From: an uncultured Gammaproteobacteria bacterium
GTDB lineage: Bacteria > Pseudomonadota > Gammaproteobacteria > PS1 > Pseudothioglobaceae
NCBI GenBank assembly: GCA_902512305.1
Contig: CABXIU010000011.1
Coordinates: 1-52,122, forward strand
DNA length: 52,122 nucleotides
Reading direction: 5' to 3'
The position numbers were made by a program, and so were the translations under genes. Positions 8,252-52,122 of this stretch are shown here, piece by piece (the first letter of the stretch is position 1; the number at the start of each line of letters is the position of its first letter). The notes beneath the pieces are model-generated. The model saw nothing but the letters and a program-made list of their open reading frames with translations, searched no databases and was not told the origin of the DNA.

Positions 8252-9130
8252 ATGGGCAGTAGTGGAAAGAAATTCAGAAAGTTAGTTATTGAAAGTAAAC
8301 CACTTCAAATTGTAGGTACTGTCAATGCCTATAGTGCGATTATGGCTGAAAAAGTTGGGCATCAATCCATCTACTTATCCGGTGGTGGTGTTGCAGCTTC
8401 GTCTCTTGGAGTTCCAGATCTTGGTATTACCACACTCGAAGATGTGCTCGAAGATGCTAAAAGAATTACTCAGGTAACTTCATTGCCATTATTAGTTGAT
8501 GCTGATACTGGCTGGGGAGATGAGATTAATATTGCTCGCTGTGTTCGAGAGATGATAAATAGCGATGTCGCTGCCATCCATATTGAAGATCAGGTTTCTC
8601 TAAAGCGTTGTGGGCATCGACCAAACAAGGCAATTGTTAGTACCAACGAAATGCTTGATCGTATCAAGGCTGCAGTGGATGCTAGAACAGATTCTAACTT
8701 TGTAATTATGGCTAGGACAGATGCGCTCGCTATCGAAGGAATGCAATCTGCTATCGATAAAGCAGAAGCATTTGCTGAAGCTGGTGCAGATATGATATTT
8801 CCTGAGGCACTCAATACTATTGAGCAATATCAAAAGTTTTCTGATTCTCTAAGTGTACCAATTCTGGCAAATATAACCGAATTTGGTCAAACACCATTGT
8901 TTAGTAAAGAGGAGCTTTCTGAGGCTGGTGTAGATATGATTCTTTATCCGCTCAGTGCTTTTCGAGCTATGAGTAAAGCAGCTCTTAATGTCTATCAACA
9001 TATTTTAGAAGATGGCCATCAAAACAATGTACTAGAAACTATGCAAACCAGGGAAGAATTGTACGATTATCTAAACTATCATCAATATGAGATGGAATTG
9101 GATGAGTTAATGAATAAGGAGAATAAATAG
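8252..9130 (+). CDS. prpB: 2-methylisocitrate lyase
   Basis: 292-aa isocitrate-lyase-superfamily enzyme that cleaves 2-methylisocitrate to pyruvate and succinate, the last step of the methylcitrate cycle. Visible features are the metal site DADTGWGD, the catalytic motif [10 protein letters not shown], and the ARTDA and PEAL segments. Length is normal for PrpB and much shorter than glyoxylate-cycle isocitrate lyase. An AAGGAA site precedes ATG 8252. It starts only 31 bp after rutR with no terminator between, so it is probably read from the preT promoter. Its stop codon overlaps the prpC GTG by one base. Confidence 0.9.
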
Positions 9131-10257
9131 TGAGTGGAAAAAAAATGGGTGGAGCTGGTCTTAGAGGGCAGAGCGCTGGAGAGACATCAATATGTACTGT
9201 TGGAGTAACCGGCTCAGGCCTTACTTATAGTGGTTATGATGTAGTAGATTTGGCAGAAAATACAACATTCGAAGAGGTCGCCTACCTTTTATTACATGAA
9301 AAATTACCCAACTCCAAGGAATTAAAAGACTATATAGAAAAACTCAAATCATTAAGAGGTTTACAGCCTGAACTAAAAAGTGCTTTAGAGGGTATCCCTA
9401 AAACCGCTCATCCAATGGATGTTTTAAGGACAGGCTGTTCAGTTTTAGGTAATTTAGAACAAGAGGAAGGGTTTTTAAATCAAACTGACCATGCTGATCG
9501 AATGCTGAGTGCATTTCCATCGATACTTAGCTATTGGTATCAGTTTTCTCACCACGGGAAAAGAATTGATACTGAAACAAATGATGACAGTATTGGTGGC
9601 CATTTTTTACACCTTTTGCACGGTAAAGAGTCTAGCCAACTTCACAATCAAGTCATGAGTGTTTCTTTGATTTTGTATGCTGAACATGAATTCAACGCCT
9701 CCACTTTTGCTGCAAGAGTTTGCGCATCAACGCTTTCAGATATCCACTCCGCAGTAACAAGTGCTATTGGAACTTTACGTGGTCCATTACATGGAGGAGC
9801 CAATGAGGCTGCAAGTGCTATGCTCTCTCAATGGAATGATCCTGATGTTGCAGAGGTAGAATTACTCAAAATGCTTGCACAAAAGCAACTTGTGATGGGC
9901 TTTGGACATGCCGTTTATACTGAATCTGATCCACGAAATGAGGTTATCAAACAATGGTCAAAAAAATTATCCTTAGAAGTAAACGACAAGCATCTTTATG
10001 ATGTATCAGAAAGAGTTGAATCAGTTATGAGAAGAGAGAAGAATCTATTCGCAAATGCTGATTTTTATCATGCTTCTACCTATGAATTTATGAAAATACC
10101 GACCAAACTATTTACTCCAATATTTGTTCTTTCAAGAGTAACTGGCTGGTGTGCCCATATTTTTGAGCAGAGACACAACAATCGCATAATAAGACCTAAT
10201 GCCGATTATATAGGCCCAAGTTTGCAAAAAGTTACTCCAATAGAGGAAAGAGATTAG
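9130..10257 (+). CDS. prpC: 2-methylcitrate synthase
   Basis: 375-aa citrate-synthase-family enzyme that condenses propionyl-CoA with oxaloacetate. The active-site signatures are present: HGGANEAAS (first His), GFGHAVY (second His) and RPNADYIGP with its Asp. Length and position between prpB and prpD identify it as the methylcitrate type and not TCA citrate synthase, though the folds are the same. The start is GTG overlapping the prpB stop, consistent with translational coupling. Confidence 0.9.
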   Translation: MSGKKMGGAGLRGQSAGETSICTVGVTGSGLTYSGYDVVDLAENTTFEEVAYLLLHEKLPNSKELKDYIEKLKSLRGLQPELKSALEGIPKTAHPMDVLRTGCSVLGNLEQEEGFLNQTDHADRMLSAFPSILSYWYQFSHHGKRIDTETNDDSIGGHFLHLLHGKESSQLHNQVMSVSLILYAEHEFNASTFAARVCASTLSDIHSAVTSAIGTLRGPLHGGANEAASAMLSQWNDPDVAEVELLKMLAQKQLVMGFGHAVYTESDPRNEVIKQWSKKLSLEVNDKHLYDVSERVESVMRREKNLFANADFYHASTYEFMKIPTKLFTPIFVLSRVTGWCAHIFEQRHNNRIIRPNADYIGPSLQKVTPIEERD

Positions 10258-10260
10258 AAA

Positions 10261-11700
10261 ATGAAAGCTGATAGAATGACAGCAGATCAAGTTCTGCAAG
10301 ATATCGCTGATTACGTCATTGATTATAAAATACTATCTGAAGAAGCCTTAAACACTGCCAGAAATTGTTTAATAGATACTATTGGGTGTGGTCTGATGGC
10401 TCTAAAATATCCAAATTGCACTAGACATTTGGGTCCAATAGTTCCAGGGATAACGGTAGAAAACGGTGCTAGAGTTTTTGGCAGGTCTTTTGAGCTTGAC
10501 CCTGTTAAGGCTGCTTGGGATATTGGTGCAATAGTGCGCTGGTTAGATTTTAACGATACCTGGCTTGCTGAAGAGTGGGGCCATCCCTCAGATAATTTAG
10601 GTGCAATTATGGCGCTTAGTGATTATATTTCACGAGTTAATATTTCAAATCATAAATCACCATTAAGTATAAAAGATGTTCTTGAATACATGATTAAAGC
10701 ACATGAAATTCAAGGCATTCTCGCACTTGAGAATAGTTTTAATAAAGTAGGTTTAGATCATGTTTTGCTTGTCAGGGTTGCAAGTACTGCTGTTGCAACA
10801 CACATGCTAGGTGGTAACAGAGATCAAATCATTGCCGCTTTATCTCAAGCCTGGGTTGATGGCTCTTCCCTTCGAACCTATCGTCATGCTCCTAATGCTG
10901 GTTCAAGGAAATCATGGGCTGCTGGTGATGCGACATCTCGCGCCGTTCGCCTAGCAATGATGACGATGGCTGGTGAGATGGCTATGCCTTCTGTTTTAAG
11001 TGCTCCAGAGTGGGGTTTTTATGATGTAAGTTTCAAGGGAAGACAGTTTAGCTTTTCTAAGAAATATGGCTCTTATGTGATGGAAAATATTCTTTTCAAG
11101 ATATCCTTTCCAGCTGAATTCCATGCTCAAACAGCGGTAGAGTGTGCAGTCTTACTTTATCCAGAGATAAAAGACAAGTTAGATGCAATTGATAGGATTG
11201 AGGTTACAACTCATGAGTCAGCACTAAGAATTATAGATAAGACAGGCACCTTAGATAATCCAGCTGACCGAGATCATTGTATGCAGTATATGCTTGCAGT
11301 TGCAATGATTAAAGGGGATTTAGTTGCTGAGTTTTATGAGGATTCCTTTCATCAACAGAATCCATTGATTGATGAGCTTCGTAGCAAGATGATTTTGACT
11401 GAAGATAAAAGATATTCAAAAGACTACTTGGCAGATGATAAGAGATCTATTGCTAATGCATTACAGATTTACTTTAATGATGGGAGTCGAACTCAGAAAG
11501 TAGAAGTAGAATATCCAATTGGACATCGCCATCGTCGCAAAGAGGGTATCCCGTTATTAGAGAAGAAATTTTTTAACAGCCTAAAAAACACTTTTAATAA
11601 TGACCAAGCTAACAGGATTTACTCTTTATGTCTTGATAGTGAGAAAATTAAAAATACACCTGTTAACGAGTTTATGGACTTGTTTGTCATTAAAGATTAG
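10261..11700 (+). CDS. prpD: 2-methylcitrate dehydratase (MmgE/PrpD family)
   Basis: 479-aa MmgE/PrpD-family dehydratase that converts 2-methylcitrate to 2-methyl-cis-aconitate. Family segments are DTIGCGLMALKYPNC, WLDFNDTWLAEEWGHPSDN and SFPAEFHAQTAVE. It begins 3 bp after prpC and ends the island. No prpE or AcnD/PrpF is present, so hydration to methylisocitrate presumably uses a housekeeping aconitase elsewhere. The 3' end overlaps the convergent reductase gene by 11 bp. Confidence 0.9.
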   Translation: MKADRMTADQVLQDIADYVIDYKILSEEALNTARNCLIDTIGCGLMALKYPNCTRHLGPIVPGITVENGARVFGRSFELDPVKAAWDIGAIVRWLDFNDTWLAEEWGHPSDNLGAIMALSDYISRVNISNHKSPLSIKDVLEYMIKAHEIQGILALENSFNKVGLDHVLLVRVASTAVATHMLGGNRDQIIAALSQAWVDGSSLRTYRHAPNAGSRKSWAAGDATSRAVRLAMMTMAGEMAMPSVLSAPEWGFYDVSFKGRQFSFSKKYGSYVMENILFKISFPAEFHAQTAVECAVLLYPEIKDKLDAIDRIEVTTHESALRIIDKTGTLDNPADRDHCMQYMLAVAMIKGDLVAEFYEDSFHQQNPLIDELRSKMILTEDKRYSKDYLADDKRSIANALQIYFNDGSRTQKVEVEYPIGHRHRRKEGIPLLEKKFFNSLKNTFNNDQANRIYSLCLDSEKIKNTPVNEFMDLFVIKD

Positions 11701-18227: not shown

Positions 18228-18695
18228 CTAAATCTTAACCTTGAAGCATTCATAGGGTTTTCCTGAGGATGGCTGAAGATTAATATAATCATCAGCTAAA
18301 ACAACTATTTCCTCAGAATTTTTCTCGTTGAGTGTAAATTGATCTTGCAGGCTAAAGTATTCTTCAAGCCAGGGATGGTTCCTATTAGTGACTTTAATAG
18401 AGTCAATCATACTCACCAAATTTTGATTATCAATCTCCCAAACTCCAGATCCAAGAGCACTATAGTAAACTTTAACTTTATTGTCTTCGATAGGAAAGTC
18501 TACTATGAGCTCCCCAAAACTATTCCAGGTTCCATCTTTTTTGTATCTGATCATTTCAAAGGCTGAGTAGCCAGGCCATACATCTTTACAAATCCAATTA
18601 CCGAGTATTTCTTTCTCATAAAAATGTGGCGACATCGCTGCAGATGCTGAGAAACTAATAAATAACCCTATGATTAAAGTATTAATAAATTTCAT
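18228..18695 (-). CDS. Secreted hypothetical protein
   Basis: About 155 aa with an N-terminal signal peptide (MKFINTLIIGLFISFSASAA, likely cleavage after SASA). ATG 18695 is preferred over an upstream in-frame start at 18719 because the signal peptide then begins properly. The mature part is beta-rich (GNWICKDVWPGY, GVWEIDNQNLVSMID) and resembles lipocalin-like proteins in which a GxW pattern is followed by alternating strands, but I cannot name a family. Two cysteines (in NWICKD and PYECFK) could form a disulfide. Probably periplasmic. Confidence 0.6.
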   Translation of the reverse strand: MKFINTLIIGLFISFSASAAMSPHFYEKEILGNWICKDVWPGYSAFEMIRYKKDGTWNSFGELIVDFPIEDNKVKVYYSALGSGVWEIDNQNLVSMIDSIKVTNRNHPWLEEYFSLQDQFTLNEKNSEEIVVLADDYINLQPSSGKPYECFKVKI

Positions 18696-18756
18696 AAGTA
18701 TAGTGTAAATTAAGTTCAAGGTATATGCATGAAGTATTCATGAATTTTAAGCGAAT

Positions 18757-28591: not shown

Positions 28592-28673
28592 CAAAACTAT
28601 AAATAATTATCGAGATTAGTATTGTCAAATAAATTATGATAATATTAAGCCTTTGATTGAAATCGGTGAGATT

Positions 28674-29342
28674 ATGTTCAAGAAATATATTTTAAAGTTA
28701 ATTAGTTCTTTTTTCTTATTAGCGTTATTATCATCTTGCGCGCCTAGTGTTGTTGATGTATCACTCTATACGACTGATATTGAAGCTGCTAACGAAGGAG
28801 AGGTTTTTGAAGTGCCTTTAAGAGCTTCATTTACAACCTATAGTGAAGATGACGGTGAATTAGAAACTGCAAGTATTATTGCAGAAAAATATCTTGCACC
28901 AGACTCCGTTTTTTCTCAATCATCTGGTGATTGGGGAGATACACTTGTTATCGAAACAACAATTCCAATAGGTACTTTAGAGAATTTACAAAACTATCTT
29001 GCAAATAATAATCGAGTGGCAGTTCTACTTGTAGAGAATACTGGAGAGATTGAGGTTAGTCTCAGTTCAACAGATTATGCTGATGCACTTAATAGCGAGT
29101 TAAGTGATATTAACTTCATGCTTGGCTTTGAGTTGCCGGGTGATGCAACAAACTTTAGAGTTATAAGTGACAGTAGAAATGATGTCCAGGTTGATGCGAC
29201 GGCAGTATTTGTTTCTGAAAAGCCTTATCTTTATTTCTCGAAAACACTCAAACGTAGAGATGAAGCGGAAATAGTATTTAAGGGAACCTCAGACAGTGTA
29301 TACAGTTCAATAAATCCTGTAATTTACGTCAACTTCCCATAA
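28674..29342 (+). CDS. Hypothetical lipoprotein
   Basis: 222-aa protein with a type II signal peptide (LLALLSSC lipobox, Cys about residue 22) and an acidic Asp/Glu-rich mature part suggesting an extracytoplasmic beta-rich domain. ATG 28674 is preferred to the in-frame start 21 bp upstream because the signal peptide then starts MFKKYILK. I recognise no family. It faces aroC tail to tail with 15 bp between. Confidence 0.7.
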   Translation: MFKKYILKLISSFFLLALLSSCAPSVVDVSLYTTDIEAANEGEVFEVPLRASFTTYSEDDGELETASIIAEKYLAPDSVFSQSSGDWGDTLVIETTIPIGTLENLQNYLANNNRVAVLLVENTGEIEVSLSSTDYADALNSELSDINFMLGFELPGDATNFRVISDSRNDVQVDATAVFVSEKPYLYFSKTLKRRDEAEIVFKGTSDSVYSSINPVIYVNFP

Positions 29343-30573: not shown

Positions 30574-31215
30574 TTAATTTATAAAGTCATCAAAATAATA
30601 ATAATTAATACCAGGTTGAGAATCTAAAGTAGACGCCATTTTTTTTGCTAAGATTTGAGCATCAATGCTTCTATATTTTCTTGCAGATCCAATACAAAAA
30701 ATGTCTAAGATTTTTGCAAGTTTCATTAAAAATTTTTCTGAAAGGGCTCTATTTCTTCCACCACTCCCAATTAAAAAACTGGGTCTAAATATATTTACAC
30801 TATCAAAGCCGAGATTAAGAATAGCATCCTCTAGTTCTCCTTTAACACCTAAGTAGAAGTTTTTTGAAGAGCTATTTGCACCAACTGTAGAGATAAGTGT
30901 CAGTTTTTTTGCACCAGATTCAAGAGCTTTTTTAGCGACAATCAGGGGGTAGTCGATGTCAACTCTTCGAAAATTATCCTTGCTACCTGCAATTCTAATT
31001 GTTGTTCCAAGACAAATAAATATATGATCACACTTTGGAAGAGAACCGTGAGTTAGAAAAGAATCAAAGTCAACTATTAGTTCTGTAGCATTTGATGGTA
31101 ATCCTGAAATTGGCTTTCTAGCAAGAGCAACAACCTTATGGTTGTTATTACAAAGCTGGATTAGGATATTATTTCCAACTAATCCGGTTGATCCTGCGAT
31201 GATTGAAATTGACAT
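30574..31215 (-). CDS. NAD(P)-binding, SDR-like oxidoreductase (NmrA/HTATIP2-like)
   Basis: 213-aa protein with an N-terminal Rossmann motif (IAGSTGLVGNNIL) and the sequences HIFICLGTTIR and LTLISTVGANSSSKNFYLGVKGELEDAI. The YxxxK-like pair (YLGVK) fits atypical SDR proteins of the HTATIP2/TIP30-like group. Substrate unknown. It begins 9 bp after the DUF2141 gene on the same strand and is probably cotranscribed. Confidence 0.7.
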   Translation of the reverse strand: MSISIIAGSTGLVGNNILIQLCNNNHKVVALARKPISGLPSNATELIVDFDSFLTHGSLPKCDHIFICLGTTIRIAGSKDNFRRVDIDYPLIVAKKALESGAKKLTLISTVGANSSSKNFYLGVKGELEDAILNLGFDSVNIFRPSFLIGSGGRNRALSEKFLMKLAKILDIFCIGSARKYRSIDAQILAKKMASTLDSQPGINYYYFDDFIN

Positions 31216-31892: not shown

Positions 31893-32108
31893 GCTATTAA
31901 TTGATTAATGATGAAATTATTTCTATGAGAGTCTATAAGTATCTTATTCCACTTAAAAATATTGAAAAAGTATATAATTTAAGAATAAGTATTATTTGTT
32001 TATAGTTTGGGTTAACTTTGCTGTTTTGCAATCTTCATCTAATAAACACATTTAATTCATTAGTTGTCTGTAGAATATTTTTATTAAATTAAATCATTGG
32101 AGTTTATT

Positions 32109-32624
32109 ATGAAAATTATTTTAAAAAGTTCTTTGATTGCTTTATTGGTATCAGCTTTTCAAATCTCTTTTGCGGGAACTTTCATAGATTCTGCTTCTGT
32201 CGTATCAGTTGATAAGGTTTATAAACAGGTTAGAGTTGAAGAGCCTTATCAGGAATGTTATATAAAAGAAACTGTTCAAAGTGGTGACGGAAGTGCTACC
32301 AATGAAATAATTGGCGGTATTATCGGTGGAGCCATAGGTAATCAGTTTGGTGATGGCAGTGGTCAAGATGCAATGACTCTTGCAGGAATTTTTCTTGGCG
32401 CTTCAATAGCAAATGATGCTGAAAAAGCTGCTGCGAATGGGGAGCAAGTGGTTGTTAGTCAAGAAGTATGCGAGAAAAAGGTTAGACAAAAAATAGAGAA
32501 AAGATTAAGTCATTACAAGGTAACTGTGGACTATAACGGAAGGGAGGTTTCATTCTCTACAAAGAGAAGACCTTATGATGAAATTATAAAGATCGAAGTC
32601 ACCGTTGATGGACTTGATAATTAA
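32109..32624 (+). CDS. Glycine-zipper surface/outer-membrane protein (17-kDa antigen-like)
   Basis: 171-aa exported protein with a signal peptide (LIALLVSAFQISFAG). A glycine-zipper segment (IIGGIIGGAIGNQFGDGSGQ, followed by LAGIFLGASIAND) resembles the 2TM glycine-zipper domain of Rickettsia 17-kDa-type proteins. The C-terminal part is charged (VCEKKVRQKIEKRLSHYKVTVDYNGREVSFST). Two cysteines may form a disulfide. ATG 32109 is preferred because GGAG lies 6 nt upstream. Likely a periplasmic or outer-membrane protein. Confidence 0.75.
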   Translation: MKIILKSSLIALLVSAFQISFAGTFIDSASVVSVDKVYKQVRVEEPYQECYIKETVQSGDGSATNEIIGGIIGGAIGNQFGDGSGQDAMTLAGIFLGASIANDAEKAAANGEQVVVSQEVCEKKVRQKIEKRLSHYKVTVDYNGREVSFSTKRRPYDEIIKIEVTVDGLDN

Positions 32625-34412: not shown

Positions 34413-35123
34413 ATGAAAAATTTCCTATTTTTATTTTCTTTTGTTTTTTTTCTAGTTAGCTGTTCTTCCATAGAGATTGATCCAGCTACTTCATCTGAAG
34501 ATGAAGCCCAAAAAATTCTTGCTTTAGGTCTTTCTCATGAAGAAAGTCTCAGAATGGCCAGTAAACTTGATAGTCCTCATTTGGTCAAAATTGTTACTTT
34601 AAAATTGAATAATGCTAGAGATGAAAAAATTCAGGCAGTGATTGATGCTGAAAAATCTCAAGAATTTGCTGCGAAAGTAAAGGTTTCTGAAGATGGTAAT
34701 GAGTTTGTCAGCATGGAAATTTCAGAATCCTTGAAGAGTGGGATTTTAGATACTGATGTAGACTTATTAAATTATTATTTTGAAAGTAATAAAGATTTGA
34801 GTAAAGGGCTTATGGATCATAGGCTTAATCTTTCCCTTGTTTATAACTCAAATAAAACTAGAGATTACCGTTCAGTAAGCTTTTGCGACAAGTGGAATAA
34901 TTGTGATGAAAAGATAGAGCAAAATGCTACTTCGATAAATGTTTCAAATTGTAAAAATACTACTTGTGATTATAAAGAAGTATTTAATATTGACTTGAAG
35001 GATGATTTCTTGAGGAATACCATAAATGAAGGATTTTCAATGCGCTTAATTTCAGATAAGAAAACAATTAGTATTAAAATACCTAAAGCTTTCCTTGTGG
35101 GCTATTTGAAGGTTGCTCAATAG
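34413..35123 (+). CDS. Hypothetical lipoprotein
   Basis: 236-aa protein with a lipoprotein signal (FLFLFSFVFFLVSC, lipobox Cys about residue 17). The mature part is charged with a helical, EF-hand-free acidic N-terminal third. A cysteine-rich stretch near residues 155-190 (SFCDKWNNCDEKI, NCKNTTCDY) has four cysteines that may pair as disulfides, suggesting a periplasmic fold. No family recognised. It follows tRNA-Val and faces the convergent Fe-S protein gene. Confidence 0.68.
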   Translation: MKNFLFLFSFVFFLVSCSSIEIDPATSSEDEAQKILALGLSHEESLRMASKLDSPHLVKIVTLKLNNARDEKIQAVIDAEKSQEFAAKVKVSEDGNEFVSMEISESLKSGILDTDVDLLNYYFESNKDLSKGLMDHRLNLSLVYNSNKTRDYRSVSFCDKWNNCDEKIEQNATSINVSNCKNTTCDYKEVFNIDLKDDFLRNTINEGFSMRLISDKKTISIKIPKAFLVGYLKVAQ

Positions 35124-46267: not shown

Positions 46268-48780
46268 TGCCGCAGCCTATTTATAGAAAGGACTATGAGC
46301 CAAGCTCTCATTTAATCAAAACAACTGAGCTAGATTTTAATCTGGGAGATGATGAGACAATTGTGTCATCTCGGATTGCTTTTTATAAAAATCCGCTTGC
46401 CTCAAAATCAGTTGATGAGTTATTTTTAAATGGCGAATCATTAGAGCTTTTATCTATCAAAATCGATGGGTTGAATGCTAATTATGTATTGAAAGATGAT
46501 GGGCTTTTTCTTGTCAATCCTCCTGAAAACTTTGTTTTAGAGGTTCAGGTTAAGATTCATCCAGAAAGCAAAACAGATTTAAACGGTCTATATCAGTCAA
46601 GTGGTAATTTTTGTACACAATGTGAGGCTATGGGTTTTAGACAAATCACTTACTACTTAGATAGGCCTGATGTCCTGAGTGTTTTCACTACTAAAATAAA
46701 TGCAAATCGAGATTATTATCCCGTGCTCTTAAGTAATGGGAACTTAATTGAAGATTCTATAACTCACTCAATTTGGCATGACCCTGCTCCAAAGCCCTGC
46801 TACCTATTTGCTTTAGTTGCAGGAAAACTAGACTTCCTTCAAGATGAATTTATAACCTCGGCCGGGAGAAAGGTCGACTTAAGGCTATATGTAGAGTCAC
46901 ATAATATGCATAAAACTGCTTTTGCAATGGAGTCTTTAAAGAAGGCATTTGAGTGGGATGAAAAAAGATTTAATCTAAGTTACGACCTAGATATTTATAT
47001 GATAGTTGCAGTTGACGACTTTAATATGGGAGCAATGGAAAACAAGGGCTTAAATATATTTAATTCAGATTGTGTTTTAGCAAACAAAAATACCTCAACT
47101 GATTCAAGTTTTGTAAGAATTGAATCCATTATTGGTCATGAATATTTTCACAATTGGACTGGAAATAGAGTGACCTGTCGAGACTGGTTTCAATTGAGTT
47201 TAAAAGAGGGGTTAACTGTCTTTAGAGATCAAGAATTTTCTTCGGATCTAAGGTCAAGAGCAATCCAAAGAATCTCCGATGTTATTCAACTTAAAACAAG
47301 GCAATTTGCAGAGGACTCAGGTCCTATGGCGCATCCAGTTAGGCCAGAATCCTACATTTCAATGGATAATTTCTACACATCAACTGTCTATGAAAAAGGT
47401 GCTGAAGTTATTCGCATGATTCATACTATACTTGGAGAAGAGGATTTCCAAAAGGGGATGAAATTATACTTTGAGAGACATGACGGTGATGCGGTTACTA
47501 TTGATGATTTTGTTGCTAGTATGGCGGATGCAAACAATAAAAATTTTGAAAATTTTATGCTTTGGTATTCCAAGTCAGGAACTCCAGAAGTGAGCATTGA
47601 AGACGAGTATGATTCAGATGCCAATGTTTATAGTGCAACATTTACTCAAAAAAACCAAAATATACCATTTATGATACCAAATCAGTTCGGCTTGTTGGCG
47701 GAAGACGGTGCTGAGATTGAATCTGGAATGGTTATTATTGATGAACTGGTCAAGACAATCTCTTTTGACAATATTTTAAGTAAGCCAACTCCCTCTTGGT
47801 TTCGAAGCTTTTCTGCGCCAATAAAGTTCAACTCTAATCTATCAACAAATGAAAAGATATTTTTGGTATCAAATGATTCTGACCCTTTTAATCGATGGGA
47901 TAACGTTCAAAGTCTTTGGTTGGAATATATTCTCAGTCCAGAGTTGGTTTCAAAAAAAGAATTGTTTAGTATGGTTGAAAATCTACTTGATAAAGAGACT
48001 GATTTTGCCCTCTTATCAGAGATGATAAGCCTTCCTTCAGAACAAATTCTTCATCAGAATATTAGAGAAATTGATGTAGAGGATGTTCATTATAAGCGTA
48101 ACAAATCTTATCTTGAGATTGGAGACGCTTTTAAAGAAGTTTTTTTAAAGATTTATGAAAAATTAAATTATAAAAAGTCATTTAACCTAACTTCTATTTC
48201 AGTTGCTGAACGTGCCTTGAAAAATAAATGTTTAGGTTATCTTACAAAACTTGGTGAATTTGATATTGCATATCAGCAATTTATAAATTCAGAATGTATG
48301 ACTGATCAGTTTGGAGCATTTCAGTCTCTTCTTGATTCTTCAAATTCTTACAGAGATGAAGTTGTTGAGCGATTTTATAATCAGCATAAATCAGATGTTC
48401 AAGTAATGGATAATTGGTTTAGTGCTCAAAGCATTTCTTCTGTTTCATCTGTTACAGATATTCGAAACTTAATGAATCATAAGTTATTTAGTATAAAAAA
48501 TCCAAATAGAATTCGTTCTGTAATCGGATCCTTTAGTCAAAATACTATCCAGTTTCATTGTCAAGAGGGTTATCAGCTTTTGAGTGAGGTAATTGTCGAG
48601 TTGGATGATTTAAATCCACAAATTGCTGCAAGATTTGCTGGAATCTTTAATCATTGGAGGCGCTTTGCCAATAAATACTCTAAACTTCAAGAGTTTCAGA
48701 TTAAATCAATAATTGATAGAGATAAAATTTCAAAAGATGTTTTTGAGATTGTTCAATCTGCCATTTTAGGAAAACACTAA
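46267..48780 (+). CDS. pepN: Aminopeptidase N (M1 family)
   Basis: 837-aa M1 zinc aminopeptidase. Exopeptidase motif [12 protein letters not shown] and zinc motif [28 protein letters not shown] (HExxH with the distal Glu) are present, and the N-terminus ([12 protein letters not shown]) matches the E. coli-type PepN. Slightly shorter than E. coli PepN (870 aa). ATG overlaps the uppP stop. Cytoplasmic; it recycles peptides. Confidence 0.96.
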
Positions 48781-49253
48781 TGTCCTATTTAAAAGCTAAA
48801 AAATTAAGTGAACTATTGATTTTAAAAAATATGTCTATCGCTATAGCTGAATCTTGCACTGGAGGTTCAATATCTAGCTCACTAACTTCAATTCCAGGGG
48901 CTTCGAACTATTTTAATTGTGGCTTTATAACTTATAGCAACCAGTCTAAAGTAAATATGCTTGGTGTTGACCCTAAGGCAATTGAATTATTTGGTGCTGT
49001 GAGTGAAAAAGTTGCCTATGAGATGGCAATGGGTGCTGGTCAAAAATCTCAGAGCGATTTAGCTGTCTCAGTTACAGGAATTGCTGGACCTTCTGGAGGT
49101 ACTCCAGAGAAGCCAGTTGGCATGGTATGTTTTGGTTTTTATATGAATAGAAATGTTGAAACTACCACCCAATTTTTCTCCGGCGTTAGGTCTGAAATTG
49201 TATCTGAGAGCATTGCATTTGCTTTAACAGAATTGACATTGAAAATCGAATGA
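48780..49253 (+). CDS. pncC: Nicotinamide-nucleotide amidase (CinA C-terminal domain)
   Basis: 157-aa stand-alone CinA C-terminal domain, deamidating nicotinamide mononucleotide in pyridine-nucleotide recycling. Motifs are [39 protein letters not shown] and [18 protein letters not shown]. The start overlaps the pepN stop (TAATG) and the end overlaps dusA by 4 bp (ATGA). Confidence 0.93.
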
Positions 49254-50227
49254 ATCATTCTCTAGTCTCCATTGCTCCAATGATGGATTGGACGGATAAA
49301 CATTGTAGATATTTTTATCGTCTCATTAGTAAAAATGTTCAGCTATATACTGAAATGATTACGACAAAAGCAATCCTGCGAGGTGATAAAAATCGATTAT
49401 TAGATTTTAATACTAGTGAAAACCCATTAGTTTTACAGCTTGGTGGAAGCGATCCTAAGGAGATGGCAGAATGTTCTTTAATTGCGCAAGATTGGGGTTA
49501 TGATGAGGTAAATATTAACGTTGGATGTCCATCTGACAGAGTTCTTTCAGGAAGTTTTGGTGCGTGTCTTATGAAAGAGCCTAATCTTGTCGCTCAGTGC
49601 GTTGATAGTATGATGCAAAAGTGTGATATCCCAGTAACAGTAAAGCATCGAATAGGGATTGATGAGATGGAGAGCTACAATCAGTTGTCAGATTTTGTTG
49701 ACCGAATAAGTGATAAGGGCTGCCAACACTTTATTGTACATGCTCGCAAAGCTTGGCTAAGAGGGTTAAGTCCAAAAGAAAATCGAACAATACCACCACT
49801 CAACTATCCTTGGGTATATAAGCTAAAAAAGGATTTTCCAAAGTTAAAATTTTCCATTAATGGCGGCATTGAAAATTGTAAAGAGATTTCTAAGCATTTA
49901 ACAAAAGTTGACGGTGTAATGCTTGGAAGGTCTATCTATCACAATCCATTTTTACTTGATGAAATTGAAGGATTTATATTTAAAAATAAAAAAAGTTCGA
50001 TTAATCGAGAACAGATTCTTAAAAAATATATGTCTTATATAAGTGATCAATCTCAAAAAGGAGTTCCTATAAGATCTATGACTAGACATATTTTGGGTTT
50101 ATATCATGGTGAGGCTAATGCAAAGCTATTTAGAAGATTACTAAGTGGAAAAATAGTAGAATTAGGCCACTTGAATGACTGGCTATATTTTAAAAAAAAT
50201 AGTTCAACTGAGATTAAAAGCTTTTAA
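49250..50227 (+). CDS. dusA: tRNA-dihydrouridine(20/20a) synthase
   Basis: 325-aa FMN enzyme reducing uridine 20/20a in the tRNA D-loop. Motifs are [54 protein letters not shown] (catalytic Cys), [10 protein letters not shown] and [19 protein letters not shown], the last typical of DusA over DusB/C. It is the link between the pepN-pncC unit and ftsA, where ftsQ would usually be. Confidence 0.95.
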
Positions 50228-50269: not shown

Positions 50270-51490
50270 ATGGCAGGCAACCACTTTGTAGCAAGCATCG
50301 ATATAGGAACAGAAAAAATTGCTCTACTAGTTGCTGAACAAGAGGAGGATGACTATCTACGAATATTTGCATATAATGCTTGTCCTTCCAAAGGGGTTGA
50401 AAGAGGGTCTATTTCTTCGATTGACTTTTTGTCCAGAGAAATTACGCAATTAATTAAAAAAACTGAGGAAGGTTTTGACCTTGATTTAATTAGAGTTCGT
50501 GTCAACATTTCTGACACCCACCTTACCTGTAAAGATAGTAGTTCACAGATTCGAGTTGATGAACAAGTAAAACTTGAGGATTTAGAATCAGTTCTTGATT
50601 CTGCTGCGGCGATTACAACATCAACCAATAAACAAGAAATCCATACTATTAAAAAGAAGTTCACGATTAATGAGGAGTCTGAGGTAGATGATCCAATGGA
50701 TATGGAGGCTAACGTATTGGAGGCTAAAGTTCATATCATTACTGTTTCAAGTTCAAGTGTTAGAAATATTGAAAACTGTCTCAAGCAAAGTAATCTTGAA
50801 GTTGAAGATATAGTACTTAACTCTATAGCTAAATCTCACGCAGTATTGACCCAAGAACAGAAAAATAGTGGGGTATGTTTGCTTGATATTGGCGCAGGAG
50901 TGACAAGTTATTCAGTATTTCAAGAAGAGGGTATTGTTCAAAGTGGCATTATTGCAATGGGTGGTGATGATGTAACAGAAGAAATTGCATATGCTTTTGA
51001 TACTTCTCTCGAAGAAGCAAAAAGATTAAAAGAGAATTATGGTGTTGCTAAAACATTGTCTCAATCTGATGATAGATTCATTGATTTCACTCAGGCAAAT
51101 AACAATGAAGAGCGTCAACTCTCTTGCTTAGATTTGAGTGAGGTGATAGAAGAGACCTATCGAGAGATTTTTGAGGCTTTAAAAAATGAGCTAAAGCATC
51201 GCAAATTAGATACTATTATCAAATCAGGTTTTGTTCTTTGTGGAGGAGGCTCAGAAATCAATTCTATCGAAGAGCTTATTCGTAATTTTTTTTCAAAAAG
51301 GGTGAAACTGGGTACAATTCAAAGATCAAGAATTGGTGGCTTAGAAGCTATTCTTACTGACTATCGATATACTGGGAGTATAGGACTTTTATTGCATGAG
51401 GGTGATTTAAACAAAAGAAAGTCCATTGTTTCTAATCGTAATAATGGAGTTTTAGATAAATTAAAAGGCACATTTGCAAAAAATTTCTAA
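50270..51490 (+). CDS. ftsA: Cell-division protein FtsA
   Basis: 406-aa actin-like divisome protein that tethers FtsZ to the membrane. Phosphate 1 (ASIDIGTEKIALLVAE), phosphate 2 (LLDIGAGVTSYSVF) and adenosine motif (FVLCGGGSEINSIEELI) are present. The SHS2 (1C) region lies between residues about 85 and 160. The C-terminal membrane-binding amphipathic helix is intact (LDKLKGTFAKNF). No frameshift or missing motif was seen. The upstream gene is dusA, not ftsQ, and the downstream gene is lpxC after 3 bp, not ftsZ. Confidence 0.94.
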   Translation: MAGNHFVASIDIGTEKIALLVAEQEEDDYLRIFAYNACPSKGVERGSISSIDFLSREITQLIKKTEEGFDLDLIRVRVNISDTHLTCKDSSSQIRVDEQVKLEDLESVLDSAAAITTSTNKQEIHTIKKKFTINEESEVDDPMDMEANVLEAKVHIITVSSSSVRNIENCLKQSNLEVEDIVLNSIAKSHAVLTQEQKNSGVCLLDIGAGVTSYSVFQEEGIVQSGIIAMGGDDVTEEIAYAFDTSLEEAKRLKENYGVAKTLSQSDDRFIDFTQANNNEERQLSCLDLSEVIEETYREIFEALKNELKHRKLDTIIKSGFVLCGGGSEINSIEELIRNFFSKRVKLGTIQRSRIGGLEAILTDYRYTGSIGLLLHEGDLNKRKSIVSNRNNGVLDKLKGTFAKNF

Positions 51491-51493
51491 CGT

Positions 51494-52122
51494 ATGGTTA
51501 AACAAAGAACAATTAAGAAAACTGTTAAAGCTCGTGGGGTTGGTATTCACAGTGGGAAAGTAGTCAATTTAAAATTGATTCCTGCGGCAGTTGATCATGG
51601 TGTTGTATTTAAAAGATTAGATGCTGGAGGTAGGCAGGTTCATGCTCATAGTGCATTTGTTAACGAAGTTATTTTGTCGACTGGAATTGAGAGTCAGGGT
51701 GTTAAAGTATCTACAATTGAGCATTTAATGTCTGCGCTTTCTGCTCTTGGTGTAGATAATCTTTTGGTTGAGCTTGACTCATTTGAGGTACCGATAATGG
51801 ATGGTTCTTCAGCACCTTTCGTATTTTTGGTTCAGTCTGCAGGTATTGAAGAGCAGGATGCACCAAAAAGATTTATAGTAATCAGGGATAAAGTTAGAGT
51901 AGAAAATGGGGAGTCATGGGCACAAGTTTCTCCTCACAATGGATTTAAAGTTTCGTTAGAGATTGATTTTGAACACAAAAAAATAAAAGAAAGTGGGCAA
52001 AAACTAACTATTGATTTTGCTGAACAATCATATCTTAAAGAAATATCACGAGCAAGAACATTTGGCTATGAAAAGGATGTTGAAATGCTGCAAAAAGAAA
52101 ATCTTGCTCTTGGGGCAAGTAT
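51494..52122 (+). CDS. lpxC: UDP-3-O-acyl-N-acetylglucosamine deacetylase, 3' truncated
   Basis: The first 209 codons of LpxC, running off the right edge. It begins [22 protein letters not shown], the family's N-terminus. [17 protein letters not shown] contains the zinc-binding His, and [13 protein letters not shown] and SRARTFGY are also typical. It makes lipid A and its presence shows a Gram-negative outer membrane. It starts 3 bp after ftsA, presumably in the same transcript. Confidence 0.95.

Follow-up and report, generated by a model that had tools for sequence, protein, structure and literature searches.

An FtsA retained without FtsZ in a family of Gammaproteobacteria

In the family studied here, sulfur bacteria of the sea and related lineages, which we take to be the Thioglobaceae (SUP05, Ca. 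T. singularis, and clam symbionts), we conclude that ftsZ was cleanly deleted between ftsA and lpxC in the common ancestor, because the empty junction is common to the family and FtsZ was not found in any of its 83 sampled genomes. From sequence comparison we further lean toward a reading in which FtsA was kept and re-adapted and would still serve the septal synthase FtsI/FtsW without FtsZ. FtsZ is the tubulin-like protein used for division by nearly all bacteria, and FtsA is its actin-like partner. Two long-standing questions are thereby touched, namely whether FtsZ is the sole possible septal organiser and what role FtsA can have alone. A literature search based on titles, abstracts, and word counts, with most subscription papers outside its scope, found no paper that treats FtsA in this family. 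As far as that search shows, what is new is an FtsA that is kept, is fast-evolving, and has lost a presumed FtsZ-binding Arg, together with the finding of ZapA, SPOR proteins, and MinE in 0 of 83 genomes, and the decay of clam-symbiont ftsA together with ftsI. That ftsZ is missing is in itself no novelty and is partly published already, FtsZ-less division having been described for the free-living Ca. Thioglobus autotrophicus and the SUP05 clade in a study whose main text makes no mention of FtsA, MinC, MinD, FtsN, or FtsK (mBio 2019, PMC6509183). The present analysis adds FtsA to a published picture that lists missing division proteins without mentioning it, and the family, which keeps FtsA, FtsI, and FtsW without FtsZ and has at least one cultured member (EF1 of that study), makes both questions testable.

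The ftsA-lpxC junction and the absence of FtsZ

The window, that is, the whole stretch of 52,122 bases that was analysed, is contig C11 of a genome of 1,478,601 bases in 34 contigs that is 89.6% complete. Its 3' end carries, all on the forward strand, cinA (48780..49253; Pfam CinA, E 1e-52), a conserved neighbour recurring in relatives, a dihydrouridine synthase gene, dus (49250..50227; Pfam Dus, E 3.5e-84), the complete ftsA of 406 aa (50270..51490), and the 5' part of lpxC (51494..52122; Pfam LpxC, E 7.4e-71), which runs off the contig end. A preliminary description of this DNA had placed the ftsA stop codon TAA at 51488-51490 and the lpxC ATG at 51494 and had stated that ftsQ is not in place upstream of ftsA; the sequence bears out both, leaving a 3-bp spacer (51491..51493) at the expected place of ftsZ and dus in that of ftsQ. 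The FtsQ profile PF03799 gave no match in the window's own genome, to which that search was limited.

The comparison covered 145 genomes, 83 of the family, including 17 single contigs, and 62 from other families of the class. Four of the single-contig genomes presumably correspond to named organisms, and we take G005 (1,714,148 bases; same genus as the window) to be Ca. Thioglobus singularis PS1, G047 (1,512,449 bases) to be Ca. Thioglobus autotrophicus EF1, G046 (1,160,782 bases) to be Ca. Ruthia magnifica, and G054 (1,022,154 bases) to be Ca. Vesicomyosocius okutanii. The ftsA-lpxC gap was measurable in 49 of 51 family ftsA loci examined and is -11 to 99 bp in 48 of them; at the remaining locus (L029, 238 bp) the start of the lpxC ORF is clipped, and tblastn places lpxC directly 3' of ftsA. 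On the other hand, the gap is 1156-1469 bp in all 16 loci measured among the 20 sampled FtsZ-bearing loci of other families. The order cinA-dus-ftsA-lpxC is repeated in the family loci with enough upstream sequence, one exception being L103 (G048), where cinA lies ~5 kb before dus. Because the same junction is repeated across the assemblies of many relatives, an assembly error at this point is ruled out.

Elsewhere in these genomes, the FtsZ profile PF00091 found no match in the window's own genome (89.6% complete) or in 60 family genomes, as against 32 of 35 matched in the class's other families. TIGR00065, applied at E values up to 1, gave nothing above noise in the 83 genomes of the family (best E 0.023 among 13 matches), and the six of these matches that were read are, by our own reading of the sequences, ordinary enzymes (two phosphoribulokinases, two alcohol dehydrogenases, RecJ, and IspE). 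Outside the family the same model detected FtsZ in 56 of 62 genomes, 54 of them above cut-off, and left six without a match (G063, G077, G082, G122, G129, and G136). FtsZ was thus not found in 83/83 genomes of the family versus 6/62 outside it (Fisher p 9e-34, with genomes counted as independent though related), and a relocated or cryptic ftsZ was rejected on the basis of the PF00091 and TIGR00065 searches and the reading of the noise matches. The preliminary description had asked whether ftsZ is missing genome-wide and in relatives or has only moved; these searches of the window's own genome and of the family support absence, and the lack of ftsZ in clam-symbiont relatives, which it had also mentioned, is in print in passages of PMC4164004 and PMC6952346.

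Other division proteins are missing as well. ZapA was found in 0/83 family genomes versus 52/62 outside, the SPOR domain in 0/83 versus 61/62, and MinE in 0/83 versus 28/62; as no SPOR domain was found, the family has no FtsN of the usual kind. The septal-glycan-binding SPOR proteins are gone from the family as a group. MinC occurs in 45/83 family genomes (2/29 in the window's genus and 43/54 in the rest of the family) and in 30/62 outside. At the six minC loci that were read (L124, L130, L132, L133, L134, and L137), minC has a TolA-like gene before it, a glyS-like gene after it, and no min neighbour; in L124 Pfam identifies ExbD/TolR together with a TonB C-terminal domain, in L130 it confirms glyS, and in L133 it assigns no domain to the TolA-like protein, the remaining neighbour identities being our own reading of the sequence. 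The gene is an orphan, retained even though FtsZ, its target, has been lost. In vitro, FtsA can be patterned by MinDE waves when FtsZ is absent, according to passages of PMC9262947; positioning of FtsA by a MinCDE oscillator was considered for the family and dropped, given the MinE count and the lack of min neighbours at the six loci. Three genomes of other families that are 97-100% complete (G063, G082, and G129) also yielded neither FtsZ nor ZapA; all three encode MinC, and two of them (G063 and G082) also encode MinE but gave no FtsA match, and these absences are either draft gaps or further losses.

Sequence of the retained FtsA

The 406-aa ORF is identified as FtsA by the NCBIfam equivalog TIGR01174 (314.5 bits, cut-off 175.85) and by the Pfam FtsA and SHS2_FTSA models (the latter, with 54.1 bits versus 25.4, marking the 1C (SHS2) subdomain by which FtsA is told apart from MreB), and its best-matching solved chains are those of FtsA in 7q6g, 7q6d, and 7q6f. 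The protein is complete, as the preliminary description had it, and the further statement that its C-terminal membrane helix is intact agrees with the alignment. The last 15 residues (51443..51487, forward strand), which occupy the place of the membrane-targeting helix in the aligned C-termini, fit that statement in their basic and hydrophobic residues, with W415 mostly lost in the family; the helix itself stays putative, since the hydrophobic moment of the tail (mean 0.34 in the family, 0.37 outside) is significant in neither set and the test is therefore without power. A single-sequence fold of FtsA was unusable (mean pLDDT 30.9), and a contig scan with FtsA was uninformative, its sole matches being four Pelagibacteraceae contigs (24% identity, residues 197-347).

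Of the 83 family genomes, 72 have a match of FtsA grade, with E values no weaker than 8.4e-19, and the other 11 have only a weaker match, taken for MreB. Six of these 11 are 53-86% complete (G004, G013, G014, G020, G022, and G032); the remaining five (G050, G054, G057, G095, and G098) all belong to a single genus and are each assembled as one contig. In family ftsA, dN/dS has a median of 0.19 and reaches at most 0.57 (218 of 595 pairs with dS <2; 35 sequences), values indicating that the gene is under purifying selection in most members, for which FtsA as a dead relic is ruled out. At an LpxC identity of 70-80%, the median FtsA identity is 36% in the family (324 pairs), as compared with 79% among FtsZ-bearing genomes (16 pairs); judged by this yardstick, the family FtsA has evolved very fast. 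The identity and tail tests used the full-length FtsA with an accompanying LpxC (48 of 51 in the family and 15 of 20 others), the FtsA analysis as a whole excludes loci L147-L157, and the column counts given below omit two partial FtsA (L123 and L004).

Of the 121 columns that reach 95% conservation across 20 FtsA from FtsZ-bearing genomes, 15 are replaced in all 50 family FtsA, and these include R300, R153, G85, and position 124. The column of E. coli Arg300, which we take to be an FtsZ-binding residue, holds Arg in 20/20 FtsA from FtsZ-bearing genomes and in 0/50 of the family; in the window it aligns with the Thr296 codon (51155..51157, forward strand; position counted by hand in the alignment). 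For the family FtsA, neither the FtsZ partner (0/83) nor the presumed docking Arg (0/50) was found. In the papers covered by a literature search, R300 or R300E of FtsA did not occur, and R300 is only one of 15 replaced columns among 121, which weighs against the reading favoured below. An FtsZ peptide is described in part of PMC9098913 as binding FtsA subdomain 2B near R286. As for filament formation, R153 together with M96 matters for FtsA double filaments (passages of PMC11323482), and E124 lies in a subunit interface (passages of PMC7613929). Both of these E. coli lateral filament-interface positions, R153 and 124, are changed in 50/50 family FtsA, and E. coli-type double filaments can therefore not be assumed.

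E. coli G205, D210, G212, G214, G336, and G337, which we take to line the nucleotide site of FtsA, are kept in at least 96% of the 50 family FtsA. With the subdomain boundaries assumed here, columns conserved outside the family are retained at a higher rate in subdomain 2A (23/45) than elsewhere (47/163; p 0.007, for counts that come from one clade and are non-independent).

Septal enzymes and their decay in clam symbionts

The enzymes of wall synthesis are largely in place. A SEDS protein is present in 82 of the 83 family genomes, the one without being 54% complete. In the window's own genome, RodA adjoins a D,D-carboxypeptidase, FtsW (342.5 versus a TIGR02614 cut-off of 337.5) adjoins murG, and mreB, mreC, mreD, and PBP2 follow one another in that order, the two middle ORFs being read as mreC and mreD. 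A further cluster combines the RsmH gene with an FtsL-like ORF and an FtsI-class transpeptidase; the transpeptidase scores under the cut-off of the FtsI model, and the FtsL-like ORF has no family match, the equivalent small ORF in G047 matching FtsL weakly. This genome thus shows the Chlamydia-like condition of MreB with PBP2 present and FtsZ not found. The well-assembled subset comprised 44 family genomes that carry FtsA and are at least 90% complete and at most 5% contaminated; two transpeptidases occur in 42 of them (exceptions G033 and G103) and at least two SEDS matches in 43 (exception G003), shortfalls that are perhaps due to gaps. Nearly all family genomes have just two transpeptidase genes, with no listed frame longer than 658 aa, and class A PBPs seem absent from the family, an absence reported for V. 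okutanii in part of PMC8406291.

Five symbiont genomes allow the fate of ftsA to be compared with that of these enzymes. In four of them (G050, G054, G057, and G095; 1.02-1.03 Mb), ftsA and ftsW are disrupted in situ, the adjoining lpxC, glnA, bioB, and ribBA carry no stops, and no FtsI match was found; in G054, ftsL is gone and ftsI is reduced to a 25-residue trace between intact dnaG and rsmH. In G050, G054, and G057, murG is one open frame, PBP2 is intact, and mreB reads intact. G095 (a contig of 1,023,779 bases; loci L102 and L146) is the exception, its decay reaching beyond the septal set to PBP2, which is broken, RodA, which carries a stop, and murG, which is in three pieces; this genome may be losing the wall altogether. 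In the fifth genome (G098, 1.23 Mb), ftsA is in two frames, ftsI is in four pieces with a stop, and ftsW is intact. Because the lpxC tree places G098 with G097 (support 0.82), apart from the clade of the other four (0.995), joint decay of ftsA and ftsI has probably taken place twice. Two events are not proof, and such co-decay is an argument that would tie FtsA to the septal synthase and not to MreB, PBP2, and RodA, with G095, in which both sets are being lost, as an exception. Since these symbionts have lost FtsA, the protein is dispensable inside a host, where any division left would have to proceed without it.

Organisation of division without FtsZ

The reading toward which we lean can be set out as follows. 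FtsA, which the family has retained, would have been re-adapted, with the presumed nucleotide-site positions and the C-terminal tail kept and the presumed FtsZ-docking Arg lost, and it would continue to serve FtsI/FtsW, the wall synthase of the septum, probably together with FtsL, a tie suggested by the shared decay in symbionts. Acting directly on FtsI/FtsW, FtsA may work as filaments or as a membrane-bound adaptor. It would gather or guide the septal synthase without a tubulin ring, and MreB, PBP2, and RodA would make the other wall. A more specific form of this proposal, in which the septal machine of the Thioglobaceae is actin-only and FtsA filaments gather FtsL, FtsI, and FtsW without FtsZ, ZapA, MinE, or SPOR-type FtsN, is put forward tentatively; if true, it would be a natural example, in free-living bacteria, of a divisome that does without its tubulin half and keeps running on its actin half.

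The main rival to FtsA as scaffold is division led by MreB, in which FtsA would be only an adaptor between the septal enzymes and either the membrane or MreB; we regard this as possible though less likely. MreB is kept in the family, and its gene reads intact even where ftsA no longer works, in G050, G054, and G057, and MreB-organised division reportedly occurs in Chlamydia. Passages of PMC6509183 also report MreB expression and propose MreB-led division in SUP05. The position of mreB with PBP2 in the usual gene order of the window's own genome is, however, what would be expected for ordinary wall growth, and division led by MreB leaves unexplained both the purifying selection on FtsA and its co-decay with ftsI/ftsW. 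It is improbable that some other organiser, such as an S-layer, a dynamin, a bactofilin, or a novel protein, replaces FtsZ and has FtsA as its membrane anchor: a role of the S-layer in division is proposed in passages of PMC6509183, but Cdv, actin, and dynamin are stated there to be lacking, and the ftsA-lpxC locus holds no candidate. That FtsZ is present and was missed, through relocation, excessive divergence, or loss from the assembly, is hardly credible, for although the window's own genome is incomplete and the TIGR00065 model also fails to detect FtsZ in six outside genomes, some perhaps through draft gaps, the contrast of 83/83 with 6/62 extends over 17 single-contig family genomes, the junction recurs in many assemblies, ZapA is gone too, and the six noise matches read are ordinary enzymes.

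Several known systems can be set beside this one. Ca. T. autotrophicus and the SUP05 clade belong, by presumed identity, to the same family. As described in part of PMC6509183, FtsZ is absent from them and MreB present, as here; that study compares its case with PVC bacteria, whereas here FtsA is kept, altered, and co-decays with the septal synthase, and the present set is wider in that it includes the window's genus. The E. coli FtsA is homologous; in the account given in part of PMC7613929, it builds double filaments on the membrane, and these, with FtsN bound, organise synthesis at the septum. The presumed nucleotide-site positions are kept in the family; in contrast to E. coli, it has no FtsZ or SPOR-type FtsN, and the lateral-interface and presumed FtsZ-site positions are changed. 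Ca. Ruthia magnifica and Ca. Vesicomyosocius okutanii are tabulated without FtsZ in PMC4164004. The loss of FtsZ in these two has been attributed to genome reduction, whereas here it is common to free-living relatives and therefore predates symbiosis. The genome that we take to be Ruthia (G046) keeps ftsA, and that taken to be Vesicomyosocius (G054) has it broken. Chlamydia and Planctomycetes, which are not known to have FtsA, have lost FtsZ and kept some septal enzymes, as here, the difference being that this family additionally keeps FtsA. Without FtsZ, Chlamydia retains FtsI, FtsK, and PBP2 (PMC5147048), and Planctopirus retains ftsI, ftsW, and ftsK (PMC6952346).

Elsewhere in the window, five ORFs of 163-236 aa have no Pfam match at E 1e-5 (18228-18719, 28653-29342, 30574-31215, 32097-32624, and 34413-35123). 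A gene of the PEP mutase/ICL family, a citrate synthase gene, and an MmgE/PrpD gene stand in a row at 8252-11700, an arrangement resembling a methylcitrate (propionate) cluster.
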